Of a DNA stretch of 64,000 nt, positions 12,930 through 47,176 are shown piece by piece. A program made the position numbers and the translations under genes. The stretch is from NCBI RefSeq assembly GCF_022682305.1, contig NZ_CP093528.1:2493501-2557500 (forward strand), given 5' to 3'. The first letter of the stretch is position 1. The number at the start of each line of letters is the position of its first letter. The stretch comes from Shinella zoogloeoides (GTDB taxonomy: Bacteria > Pseudomonadota > Alphaproteobacteria > Rhizobiales > Rhizobiaceae). Below the pieces are notes generated by a model that was given only the letters and a program-made list of their open reading frames with translations, was not told where the DNA came from and made no database searches.

Positions 12930-12958
12930 TTGAAACTGCCCGCACTCCCCTCATAAAT
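12930..12958 (+). promoter_or_regulatory. Candidate sigma-70 promoter of trxB
   Basis: TTGAAA (12930 to 12935), 17-base spacer, ATAAAT (12953 to 12958). It would start a leader of about 80 bases before the trxB ATG at 13047. Confidence 0.6.
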
Positions 12959-13046
12959 GAGGCTGGAACACGACACGCAGGCCCCTGCCCGCAGCGACAT
13001 CGCGCGGCGCCGGCCGGATTGGGGCAAGGCCCCGGAAGGAACGATC

Positions 13047-14021
13047 ATGTCCACCCGCCACGTCAAGGTGCTGATCATCGGCTCCGGCCCCGCCGGCTAC
13101 ACCGCCGCGATCTATACCGCCCGCGCCATGCTTGAACCCGTGCTGATCGCCGGCATGGAACAGGGTGGCCAGCTCATGATCACCACCGATGTGGAGAACT
13201 ACCCGGGCTATGCCGATCCGGTACAGGGGCCTTGGATGATGGAGCAGATGCTCAAGCAGGCAGAGCATGTCGGCGCCGAGATCGTCAACGACCTCGTCAC
13301 CAGTGTCGATCTCGACGTGCGCCCCTTCCGCATCTCCACCGACAGCGGAACGGAATGGACCGCCGACGCGCTGATCATTGCGACGGGCGCGAAGGCCAAG
13401 TGGCTCGGCATCGAGACCGAGCAGAAGTTCATGGGCTTCGGCGTTTCGGCCTGCGCCACCTGCGACGGCTTCTTCTATCGCGGCAAGGACGTCATCGTCG
13501 TCGGCGGCGGCAACTCGGCCGTCGAGGAGGCGCTTTACCTCTCCAACCTCGCAAAGAGCGTGACCGTCGTGCACCGCCGCGACGGCTTCCGCGCCGAACG
13601 CATCCTCCAGGAGCGCCTGTTCGCGAAGGAAAACGTCAAGGTCGTCTGGGACCACGAGGTCGTCGAATATCTGGGCGGCGAGGCCAAGCCGCCGATGCCG
13701 GCCGCCGTCAACGGCGTGAAGCTGCGCAACGTGAAGACCGGCGAGACCCGCGACGTCGAGACGGACGGCGTCTTCGTCGCCATCGGCCATGCGCCGGCGG
13801 TCGAACTCTTCAAGGGCAAGCTGCGCCAGAAGCCGAACGGCTACCTCTGGACCGCTTCCGATTCCACGGCGACGGACGTGCCGGGCGTGTTTGCCGCCGG
13901 CGACGTCACCGACGACATCTACCGCCAGGCGGTCACGGCCGCCGGCATGGGCTGCATGGCGGCCCTTGAAACCGAAAAATACCTTGCAGGTCATATGCCT
14001 GTCGCAATTGCGGCCGAGTAG
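13047..14021 (+). CDS. trxB: Thioredoxin-disulfide reductase
   Basis: The 324-residue flavoenzyme passes electrons from NADPH through FAD to thioredoxin in the cytoplasm. Seen in order: FAD-binding GSGPAGYTAAIYTARA (12 to 27), redox-active CATC at 136 to 139 (SACATCDGFF), NADPH-binding GGGNSAVEEALYL near 153, and the C-terminal FAD motif GVFAAGDVTDDIYRQAVTAAGMGCMAA. The ATG at 13047 follows GGAAGGA. An upstream in-frame ATG would add 30 residues that do not look like the family. In S. meliloti trxB and lsrB are neighbours too, and LsrB is linked to redox stress, so the pairing makes sense. Confidence 0.97.
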   Translation: MSTRHVKVLIIGSGPAGYTAAIYTARAMLEPVLIAGMEQGGQLMITTDVENYPGYADPVQGPWMMEQMLKQAEHVGAEIVNDLVTSVDLDVRPFRISTDSGTEWTADALIIATGAKAKWLGIETEQKFMGFGVSACATCDGFFYRGKDVIVVGGGNSAVEEALYLSNLAKSVTVVHRRDGFRAERILQERLFAKENVKVVWDHEVVEYLGGEAKPPMPAAVNGVKLRNVKTGETRDVETDGVFVAIGHAPAVELFKGKLRQKPNGYLWTASDSTATDVPGVFAAGDVTDDIYRQAVTAAGMGCMAALETEKYLAGHMPVAIAAE

Positions 14022-14134
14022 AAGCCGCCAACAAAGGGAGGCGGATTCGTACCGACCTCCCGCGTGGGAACAGTTGAATCAGCGATCGGGCGGGAAGCGT
14101 GCGCTCCCCGCCACACAGACATATGGGGGATAGA

Positions 14135-15031
14135 ATGCCGCTCGATTGGGACAAGCTGCGGATTTTTCATGCCGCGGCCGAGGCGGGTTCGTTCACGCAT
14201 GCGGCGGACAAGCTGCATCTTTCTCAGTCGGCCATCAGCCGCCAGGTGAGCGCGCTGGAGCAGGATGTCGGGATCAAGCTTTTCCACCGCCATGCCCGCG
14301 GCCTCATCCTCACCGAGCAGGGCGAAATCCTCTACCGCACCGCCCATGACGTGCTGATGAAGCTCGAAAGCGTGCGCGTTCAGCTCACGGAAAACACCGA
14401 GAAGCCGAGCGGCAAGCTGCGCATCACCACCACCGTCGGCCTCGGCCAGGGCTGGCTGACGGACAAGGTGCAGGAATTCCTCGCCCTCTACCCGGACATG
14501 CAGGTGCAGCTCATCCTCGACAACGAGGAGCTGGACGTGAACATGCGCCATGCCGATTGCGCCATCCGCCTGCGCGAGCCGCAGCAGTCCGACCTCATCC
14601 AGCGCAAGCTATTCACCGTGCACATGCACGTCTATGCCGCGCCGTCCTACATCAACCGTTACGGCGAGCCGCAGTCGATCGACGATTTCGACAACCACAA
14701 GATCATCACCTTCGGCGAGCCGGCCCCGAACTACCTGTTGGACGTCAACTGGCTGGAGATCGCCGGCCGCGATTCCGACAATCCGCGCCCCTCGGTGCTG
14801 CAGATCAACAGCCTCACCTCGATCAAGCGCGCGGCCCTGCTCGGCATCGGCATCGCGATGCTTCCCGATTACATCGTCGGGCGCGATCCGGGCCTGATCC
14901 AGCTCGTCACCAATGCGGATGTACCGTCCTTCGACACCTATTTCTGCTATCCGAGCGAGATGAAGAACTCGGCGAAGCTCAAGGTTTTCAGGGACTTCAT
15001 CGTCGCGAAAGCACGCAACTGGAACTTCTGA
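14135..15031 (+). CDS. lsrB: LysR family regulator LsrB/VtlR
   Basis: The 298-residue protein has the LysR winged helix (LDWDKLRIFHAAAEAGSFTHAADKLHLSQSAISRQVSALEQDVG) and a long effector domain with a C-terminal cluster ending KLKVFRDFIVAKARNWNF. The wording and the trxB-lsrB-AbcR-arsR order match S. meliloti LsrB and Brucella/Agrobacterium VtlR. LsrB is needed for LPS quality and oxidative stress tolerance, and Brucella VtlR activates an AbcR sRNA and small genes. Two AbcR-type sRNA genes lie immediately downstream here, strengthening the call. A 7-bp stem (GCAGGTC/GACCTGC, 15034 to 15054) follows the stop without a T run. Confidence 0.92.
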   Translation: MPLDWDKLRIFHAAAEAGSFTHAADKLHLSQSAISRQVSALEQDVGIKLFHRHARGLILTEQGEILYRTAHDVLMKLESVRVQLTENTEKPSGKLRITTTVGLGQGWLTDKVQEFLALYPDMQVQLILDNEELDVNMRHADCAIRLREPQQSDLIQRKLFTVHMHVYAAPSYINRYGEPQSIDDFDNHKIITFGEPAPNYLLDVNWLEIAGRDSDNPRPSVLQINSLTSIKRAALLGIGIAMLPDYIVGRDPGLIQLVTNADVPSFDTYFCYPSEMKNSAKLKVFRDFIVAKARNWNF

Positions 15032-15087
15032 GGGCAGGTCCTGGCAAGACCTGCGCCTCATGCATGGCTGGCATGCACATTGAATCC

Positions 15088-15116
15088 TTGATGCCTGCAC
15101 AAAAAACCATCATATC
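15088..15116 (+). promoter_or_regulatory. Promoter of the first AbcR-type sRNA
   Basis: TTGATG (15088 to 15093), 17-base spacer, CATATC (15111 to 15116). Nearly identical in boxes and spacing to the promoter of the second copy (TTGAAG, 17, CATATT). Confidence 0.65.
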
Positions 15117-15122
15117 GCCCGT

Positions 15123-15244
15123 AGCTGATGCACTTTGGTGGCTTTTCCTCCCAGTGCCACCGCGTCGGCTGTTCCCCTCTGGAGGTTTTATTACCTTCAA
15201 AACTACAAAGGGCCCAAGTTGATCTTGCGGCCCTCTTTTTTTGC
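15123..15244 (+). ncRNA. abcR1: AbcR-type trans-acting small RNA, copy 1 (alpha-r15 family)
   Basis: About 120 nt. It carries the family's two unpaired CU-rich target-binding stretches, CCTCCCAGTG (15149 region) and CTGTTCCCCTCTGG (15169 region), followed by GGAGGTT. It ends in a terminator formed by AGGGCC-CAAG and CTTG-GGCCCT around 15210 to 15233, then a run of seven or more Ts (15235 to 15242). AbcR RNAs are Hfq-dependent and block ribosome binding on mRNAs of ABC-transporter solute-binding proteins. The start is set from the predicted promoter and the end from the T run, so both may be off by several bases. Which copy matches AbcR1 or AbcR2 of S. meliloti is not certain. Confidence 0.85.
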
Positions 15245-15302
15245 CTTGTGTTGACCAGGACGGAATTTTCAACGCTCCCGGAAAACTTGGCATCCGTTTC
15301 TC

Positions 15303-15331
15303 TTGAAGAAACAACACCTCTCTCCCATATT
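15303..15331 (+). promoter_or_regulatory. Promoter of the second AbcR-type sRNA
   Basis: TTGAAG (15303 to 15308), 17-base spacer, CATATT (15326 to 15331). It is located after the terminator of copy 1, so copy 2 is an independent transcription unit. Confidence 0.65.
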
Positions 15332-15337
15332 CAAAAT

Positions 15338-15457
15338 CAGCCGGTGCACCCGCGGACTTTCTCCTCCCAGTGCCGCGCACCGGCTGTTCCCCTCTGGAGG
15401 TTATTCAACCTTCAACCTTGCAGGGCCCAGGCTTCGCTTGCGGCCCTCTTTTTTTGC
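15338..15457 (+). ncRNA. abcR2: AbcR-type trans-acting small RNA, copy 2 (alpha-r15 family)
   Basis: About 120 nt. It repeats the copy 1 plan: CTCCTCCCAGTGCC at 15361, CGGCTGTTCCCCTCTGGAGGTTATT from about 15381, and the terminator AGGGCC-CAGGCTTCGCTTG-C-GGCCCT (15422 to 15447) with seven or more Ts (15449 to 15455). The two copies agree in the CU-rich loops and terminator. They differ in the 5' end and in the connecting bases, so their target sets may overlap only partly. Edges are estimated from promoter and terminator. Confidence 0.85.
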
Positions 15458-15490
15458 CGGCACCCCTTGCATCGCAAAAGAACGATCACA

Positions 15491-15510
15491 ATATCGGTAC
15501 AAGACGATAT
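15491..15510. promoter_or_regulatory. Candidate operator of the ArsR-family gene
   Basis: ATATCG (15491 to 15496) and CGATAT (15505 to 15510) form a perfect inverted repeat with an 8-base spacer, 26 bases upstream of the ATG at 15537. Dimeric ArsR-type regulators bind such dyads in their own promoter, so autoregulation is likely. Confidence 0.5.
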
Positions 15511-15536
15511 AGCCATCGCCAACACACGATAGACCG

Positions 15537-15842
15537 ATGACACCGCTCGACACCGACGAAATCCTCAAGGCCCTCGCCCATCCCAAGCGGCTGGAGATCC
15601 TCGCCTGGCTGAAGGAGCCGCAGGCGCATTTCGCCGGCCAGGAGCATCCGCTGGAATTCGGCGTATGCGCCGGCCAGATCGAAAAGCGCTGCGACCTCTC
15701 GCAGTCCACCGTTTCCGCCCATCTCGCCACCCTGCAGCGCGCCGGTCTCGTGTCGACGCGCAAGGTCGGCCAATGGGTGTTCTTCAAGCGCGACGAAGAC
15801 AGGATCGCGGCCTTCCTGCGCCACATCAACGGCGCCCTCTAG
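15537..15842 (+). CDS. ArsR-type winged-helix transcriptional regulator
   Basis: The 101-residue protein is a single HTH domain: LDTDEILKALAHPKRLEILAWLK, then the recognition region CDLSQSTVSAHLATLQRAGLVSTRKVGQWVFFKRDEDRI. No metal-binding ELCVC-type motif is visible. There is a lone Cys in FGVCAGQIEKRCDLS, giving two Cys in the spacer before the recognition helix, so it may sense something other than metals. The gene sits 31 bases before an Old Yellow Enzyme reductase gene on the same strand, so the two probably form an operon and the regulator may respond to an electrophile that the reductase removes. Same place as the ArsR gene after the AbcR RNAs in S. meliloti. Confidence 0.9.
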   Translation: MTPLDTDEILKALAHPKRLEILAWLKEPQAHFAGQEHPLEFGVCAGQIEKRCDLSQSTVSAHLATLQRAGLVSTRKVGQWVFFKRDEDRIAAFLRHINGAL

Positions 15843-46423: not shown

Positions 46424-47176
46424 ATGATGAAGAGACTGCTCCTGGCGCTCGGCCTTTCACTCGCTCCCCTTTCCGCACCGCTCGCCGAGCCGCTGCACTT
46501 CATCACCGAGGAATACGCACCCTTCAATTTCCTCAAGGACGGCAAGATCACCGGCATCACCGTCGATCAGGTCACCGCGATCGCCGAAGCGGCCGGCATC
46601 GACTACACGATGGAGATCATGCCCTGGGCGCGCGCCTTCGCCATGGTGCGGAGCCGGTCGATGCACTGCATCTTCACGGCCGGATACAACCGCGAGCGCG
46701 CCCGCCAGTTCGCCTGGATCACCCCCACACTCAAGGACGAGATGGTGCTGCTGAAGCGCAAGGACGGCAGCAAGGGACCGGCCTCCATGAAGGAAGCACT
46801 CGGCATGAAGGTCGGCTCGCAGCGCGGTGACTTCGCCGTGGAGGTGCTGGAAGGCCTTGGCTTCACGAATATCGATCTTGCCGCCGACATCGACCTTTCC
46901 GTGCGCAAGCTCGTTTCCGGCCGCATCGACCTGATGCCGACCTCCATCAAGACCTATGAAAGCCTCGTGCGGCGGGGAGAGCCGGTGGAAAAAGCCATGG
47001 CGATGTCGGGCCAGATCTTCGGCATCGCCTGCAACAAGCAGACGCCTCCGACCCTCATCGCCCGCCTGCAGGCCGAGTTGAACAAGCTGATCGCAAGCGG
47101 CGAGCAGGACCGCATCTTTGCCGCCTACGGCCTGCCGCCAACCCCGCGCACGACGGAAAACGGCGCGAAGGAATAG
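46424..47176 (+). CDS. Periplasmic solute-binding protein (SBP_bac_3 type)
   Basis: The 250-residue precursor has a signal peptide ([20 protein letters not shown]) and a two-lobed type II binding domain ([51 protein letters not shown]). The wording is that of amino-acid-like ABC binding proteins that lack a linked ABC system. Right after the GGDEF-EAL gene with GGGGAGAGGGG as ribosome site, it probably acts as a ligand-binding partner for signalling rather than for uptake. Starts at 46424 or 46427 are equivalent. Confidence 0.85.

Follow-up and report, generated by a model that had tools for sequence, protein, structure and literature searches.

The AbcR small RNAs have been described in S. 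meliloti and A. tumefaciens. In S. meliloti, LsrB is reported to bind the AbcR1 promoter at −61 to −49, through the motif GCAT-N3-TG-N3-T, and the AbcR2 promoter is reported to carry the RpoH1 box CTTGAA-N16-CCTATAT (PMC8844928). The published accounts conflict on the weight of LsrB in that species: one describes no effect of an lsrB deletion on either AbcR1 or AbcR2 (PMC7486931), while the other describes a strong LsrB dependence of AbcR1 (PMC8844928). In A. tumefaciens, AbcR2 is described as having little activity (PMC7486931). The AbcR pair, its regulators, and the occurrence of ar15 in multiple and plasmid-borne copies are already in the literature (PMC8844928, PMC7486931, PMC3712013, PMC7143759, PMC10746234, PMC3927594, PMC2873474, PMC2881028).

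The 64-kb stretch of Shinella DNA analysed here (the window) carries such a pair on its forward strand. An Rfam scan of the whole window returned only two matches, both to the ar15 (AbcR) model RF02345, at 15123-15239 with 103 bits and at 15339-15452 with 87.2 bits. The curated cut-off of that model is 40 bits, and both matches cover positions 1-112 of its 112, which makes the two units full-length members of the family. A first-pass annotation, made from the sequence by a model, had proposed two tandem AbcR-type sRNA genes and had suggested this covariance-model comparison as a check; with both scores so far above the cut-off, the proposal is borne out. Terminators included, the genes extend over 15123-15242 (abcR1) and 15339-15455 (abcR2), and 93 of their 121 aligned columns are identical. 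The CU-rich loops that had been described as shared are present in each unit as the anti-Shine-Dalgarno motifs CTCCCAGTG (aSD1, at 15148 and 15364) and CTGTTCCCCTCTGG (aSD2, at 15169 and 15384), and the predicted folds agree with the terminators that had been noted, in that both units form three hairpins of which the third is a terminator-like stem followed by U. Each unit thus combines the two anti-Shine-Dalgarno motifs with the three-hairpin, terminator-bearing fold of ar15. The folds are far more stable than those of shuffled sequences (z = −5.39 for unit 1 and −4.99 for unit 2, and in 200 shuffles no value was as low). No promoter and neither of the two terminators was among the sites of a generic consensus scan, which returned one terminator-like site at 15818; the promoter and terminator calls are accordingly based on the Rfam model, on the folds and on the consensus published for alphaproteobacteria.

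All 21 genus genomes hold at least three ar15 matches, and by the listed coordinates a tandem pair about 215 bases apart is present in 20 of them. From this conservation we infer, as the first-pass annotation had, that both copies are live. At one locus (G009:C7:285847-288882) the tandem pair is split, with the ar15 copies about 2.9 kb apart.

The neighbouring genes are also those of the described systems. The pair is preceded by trxB, encoding thioredoxin reductase (12957-14021 when read from the first start codon; NCBIfam TIGR01292, 394.8 bits against a cut-off of 343.45), and by a LysR-type gene for 298 aa, lsrB/vtlR (14135-15031), and is followed by an arsR-type regulator gene (15537-15842; NCBIfam NF033788, 71.4 bits against a cut-off of 55), all on the forward strand. 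This order, trxB-lsrB-abcR1-abcR2-arsR, is identical to the trxB-vtlR-abcR1-abcR2-arsR order published for A. tumefaciens C58 (PMC7486931), and in S. meliloti the AbcR pair is likewise reported to be flanked by lsrB and an ArsR-type gene (PMC3712013); the earlier statement that the pair adjoins lsrB/vtlR holds, with the LysR-type gene lying directly upstream, between trxB and the abcR genes. Its product aligns over residues 1-298 with PDB chain 9hh1_A, named as a LysR-family regulator, at 602.4 bits, and matched LysR families of which none, the LsrB-type family included, rose above its curated cut-off. The name lsrB is accordingly a putative one, given on the LysR match and a position as in A. 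tumefaciens (PMC7486931). The leader of lsrB, ACATATGGGGGATAG (14110-14140), is well conserved and complementary to aSD2, and its ATGGGGG is present in all 12 tandem loci read, that of the window included; one might guess that this leader could pair with aSD2, which would close a feedback loop between AbcR and lsrB.

The promoter boxes had been given as TTGATG/TTGAAG and CATATC/CATATT with a 17-base spacer, and all are correct: the abcR1 promoter spans 15088-15116 (TTGATG at 15088-15093, 17 bases, CATATC at 15111-15116), and unit 2 has TTGAAG at 15303 and CATATT at 15326 with the same spacer of 17. Judged by their surrounding motifs, these similar −35 and −10 boxes hide two kinds of promoter. 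An LsrB/VtlR box, GCATGGCTGGCAT, with the consensus GCAT-N3-TG-N3-T (PMC8844928) lies at 15062-15074, that is at −61 to −49 of unit 1 when counted from the Rfam start at 15123 rather than from a mapped 5' end. The same pattern has no match upstream of unit 2, where the promoter at 15302-15331 reads CTTGAA-N16-CCCATAT over 15302-15330, one mismatch away from the RpoH1 consensus CTTGAA-N16-CCTATAT (PMC8844928). Because unit 1 has the published LsrB/VtlR site, it is assigned as AbcR1, and unit 2, which has an RpoH1-like promoter and no LsrB box, is assigned as AbcR2. The suggestion that neighbouring LsrB is a candidate activator consequently stands for unit 1 and falls for unit 2, and of the further suggestion that the units differ in regulation or in targets, the part on regulation is upheld, in agreement with what has been published for S. 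meliloti, and the units may also differ in targets.

The division of promoters recurs among related loci. The Rfam search gave 67 matches outside the window's own genome, and in the 28 genus loci retrieved from these, without selection for the box, the LsrB box precedes 8/8 tandem-first, 0/8 tandem-last and 17/19 unlinked copies; the corresponding counts in the own genome are 1/1, 0/1 and 2/4 (in both sets identical units were counted once and units without the core pattern were left out). Over a larger set of 105 units, which includes some loci fetched by the LsrB box itself, the box is found in 19 of 20 tandem-first, two of three middle and 49 of 62 single units and in one of 20 tandem-last units, so that each tandem position has a single counter-case. 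An RpoH1-like promoter with at most one mismatch shows the opposite distribution (tandem-last 15/20, tandem-first 0/20, middle 0/3, single 2/62). By chance, the LsrB box appeared at that offset in 41 of 52,500 shuffles and at 590 of 460,000 random points.

There is strong reason to think that the two units are an LsrB-activated AbcR1 (15123-15242) and an RpoH1-driven AbcR2 (15339-15455) that silence through their anti-Shine-Dalgarno motifs, a reading that draws here on RNA family and structure, on motifs and the position of the box, and on neighbours and conservation. By analogy with S. meliloti and A. tumefaciens, LsrB from the adjoining gene would bind at −61 to −49 and activate AbcR1 in growing cells, and RpoH1 would drive AbcR2 under stress. 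On the same analogy, the two C/U-rich stretches of each RNA would then pair with the Shine-Dalgarno regions of mRNAs for ABC transporters and metabolism, and this pairing, assisted by Hfq, would block translation of the targets. Given the little activity described for A. tumefaciens AbcR2, AbcR2 may be weak at this locus too.

Similar −35 and −10 boxes with similar spacing in both units might lead one to expect a redundant pair co-regulated by LsrB, but the box is absent before unit 2 and before 19 of 20 tandem-last copies, and AbcR2 is reported to be unchanged by deletion of vtlR in A. tumefaciens (PMC7486931) and of lsrB in S. meliloti (PMC8844928), which together make co-regulation very improbable. 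It is also unlikely that AbcR2 is a decaying duplicate without function; its Rfam score is below that of AbcR1 and weak AbcR2 activity has been published for A. tumefaciens (PMC7486931), but the tandem pair persists in 20 of the 21 genus genomes and the window copy retains both aSD motifs, its stems, its terminator and an RpoH1-like promoter. To the idea that the stretch is instead a protein gene, with a 134-aa reading frame that is indeed open at 15128-15532 through both units, we attach next to no probability, and it was rejected: on translation of 12 tandem loci the corresponding frame ran for 134 codons in the window and was free of stops over the 140 codons read in L025, but it stopped after 26-74 codons in the other ten, and covarying hairpins account for the conservation.

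With AbcR1 and AbcR2 so assigned, the question of targets can be set beside the S. meliloti work, in which the two targetomes are reported to overlap widely (PMC8844928), livK is described as repressed by AbcR1 and not by AbcR2, and the 5' hairpin has been proposed as the target-discriminating part (PMC3712013). In the window pair the 5' hairpin differs between the copies, and both anti-Shine-Dalgarno motifs are kept in both. The solute-binding protein gene at 46424, which the first-pass annotation had put forward for target prediction, is a plausible but unremarkable target, forming a duplex of −15.8 kcal/mol with either aSD motif and placing 10th of 62 ORFs in a ranking of naively called frames, some of them spurious, whose top entry is antisense to the sRNA itself.

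The pair is not alone in its genome (5.14 Mb, 7 contigs), which contains at least six ar15 genes, namely the pair, a third copy on C1, which is also the contig of the pair, and single copies on C2, C3 and C4, as counted from 150 of 163 first-look candidates that were scored. Its BLAST neighbours belong to Shinella, with Shinella sp. PSBB067 at 85.6%, an S. zoogloeoides plasmid at 92.2% and the RepA of an S. sumterensis plasmid at 99.8%. An extended form of the box, GCATRGCTGNNNTGCACA, occurs at three sites in the whole genome, each of them ahead of an ar15 gene, with no site for its reversed control; the C2 copy has a box with one mismatch, and none was found before the C4 copy even when one mismatch was allowed. 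A shorter form, GCATRGCTGNNNTGC, occurs at nine sites against two for the reversed control. Three of the nine are before ar15 genes, one is before an ar14 gene and five are elsewhere; two of these five, located 89 bases upstream of an ORF of 213 aa and 139 bases upstream of one of 104 aa, may mark additional LsrB targets. The ar14 family has five matches in this genome, two of them preceded by an LsrB-type box and three without one. The two boxes are GCATAGCTGCCTT, which is separated from the Rfam start by 95 bases that include a further aSD-like stretch (C1:591943-592162; L122/L133), and GCATGGGTGCCAT, which is 60 bases ahead of it (C1:1578850-1578982; L125).

Related copies occur on many plasmids of the family. 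A query made of the C2 copy and its upstream region matched 392 of the 72,556 plasmid records, 275 of them typed as conjugative, and 388 records matched when only the RNA of the third C1 copy was used. The 75 bases upstream of that third copy matched at least 182, a lower bound with so short a query, and the 83 bases upstream of the window AbcR1 matched a single record, which at 4.6 Mb is chromosome-like; some other matching plasmid records are also megabase-sized. For scale, relatives of the C4 RepC appear in 2113 records (951 conjugative) over a wider genus set, and the ar15 and RepC records, set side by side rather than intersected, number 175 and 657 in Rhizobium, 84 and 322 in Agrobacterium, 64 and 255 in Sinorhizobium, and 23 and 49 in Shinella.

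Twenty-three plasmid records were fetched, three by hand and 20 at every third row of a spread list, and all 23 loci pass the Rfam ar15 cut-off. In 18 of them the LsrB box lies 61-64 bases ahead of the Rfam start; L039 has it with one mismatch, and four records (L050, L059, L060, L061) lack it. Among the 20 systematic rows the count is 16, in a sample that favours records keeping the promoter because the query contained it. Four further records chosen by hand add two with the box (L128, L129), one without (L127, Roseibium) and one missed by the pattern and unscored (L126, Mesorhizobium). The pSymA plasmid of S. meliloti strain ABS7 (L057) carries a plasmid-class ar15 copy, with the box 64 bases ahead of its Rfam start. 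Across 151 family genomes, the box together with the ar15 core was found in 33, as pattern matches rather than as sites scored individually by the Rfam model, and a scrambled box in none; the bare core pattern was found in 51, with many background matches for the reversed control too. Since most of the ar15 copies examined that are unlinked or on plasmids have the same box in front of them, at almost the distance seen for AbcR1, LsrB probably drives those copies as well. In one family member (G119:C11:655906-656631; L069, L101) four ar15-core sites follow one another, and three of these have an LsrB box.

An alignment of 29 ar15 copies (the window pair, the four others of the same genome and the 23 from plasmids) gives a consensus fold of 28 pairs, ten of which have at least one change on both sides with pairing kept; most pairs are broken in a few sequences, and the pair of columns 98/110 is broken in 6/29. 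The stretch GTTCCCCTCTGGAGG around aSD2 is invariant but for one inserted T in L050, and aSD1 is nearly so; kept pairs and invariant aSD stretches argue against decay of the plasmid copies in general. As a clade of their own, plasmid copies of the RNA were unsupported, with 19 label changes against a shuffled mean of 21.3 and 36 of 500 shuffles as low, for an RNA too short to resolve a tree. Some genus copies group with plasmid copies from other genera (L015 with L058, L032 with L046), which suggests transfer. The possibility of a single conserved plasmid position was rejected, as the surroundings vary among the 23 records: large helicase and/or ParB-like genes fall within the flank in seven (L040, L041, L042, L044, L047, L048, L058), ar15 is just upstream of repABC in L050, as it is in contig C4 of the window's own genome, tra or virB genes are close by in L051-L053, and the remaining records vary, L043 and L046 being without annotation. 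In two Shinella-type plasmids repABC is bracketed, with ar15 upstream of repA and ar14 downstream of repC (contig C4, L010, 255-5113; L050, 7082-11939). A phage origin of the copies was likewise rejected, the exact core CTGTTCCCCTCTGGAGG being present in no viral contig; among 50,697 phage-labelled records one, MT838570.1 (5.1 kb, Bacteriophage sp.), matches the plasmid-class ar15 gene and promoter at 1590-1769, and it is perhaps a mislabelled plasmid fragment.

With the window locus, a well-studied riboregulatory switch is extended to Shinella, and each copy is assigned its expected regulator. The plasmid class matters more. In the limited set of papers searched, no publication on LsrB control of plasmid ar15 copies came up. 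We tentatively propose, as a possibility that we rate somewhat short of even, that an AbcR class recurrent on rhizobial repABC plasmids has its own operator, GCATAGCTGCATTGCACA at about −61, wired to chromosomal LsrB, such that an incoming plasmid would raise the dose of anti-Shine-Dalgarno sRNA and transporters, possibly the plasmid's own, would be held down when LsrB is active. If LsrB does drive the class, small RNA genes on mobile DNA are under the control of a chromosomal redox regulator, and the class would directly test how plasmids connect to the metabolism of their host.

Compared with the known systems, the locus differs in arrangement from that of Brucella, where an AbcR RNA is activated by VtlR through an identical box consensus but the AbcR1 and AbcR2 genes are on two chromosomes, as recounted in PMC7486931. 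The NfeR1/ar14 RNAs are likewise multi-copy anti-Shine-Dalgarno sRNAs, with NfeR1 also activated by LsrB (PMC10746234), but they form a separate Rfam family with three aSD loops. In A. tumefaciens VtlR is reported to activate AbcR1 only, and its AbcR2 is said to be without motif M1 (PMC7486931), whereas the window copies keep both motifs. Another counterpart is the S. meliloti pair Smr15C2/Smr15C1 (AbcR1/AbcR2), which has the same tandem arrangement and neighbours, the same three-hairpin fold and the motifs CUCCUCCC (aSD1) and UUCCCCUC (aSD2) (PMC8844928, PMC3712013), and which belongs to a different genus, with three AbcR homologues reported in Rm1021 (PMC7143759) against at least six ar15 genes here. 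As in the window, the S. meliloti LsrB box lies at −61 to −49 of AbcR1 and an RpoH1-type promoter precedes AbcR2 (PMC8844928).
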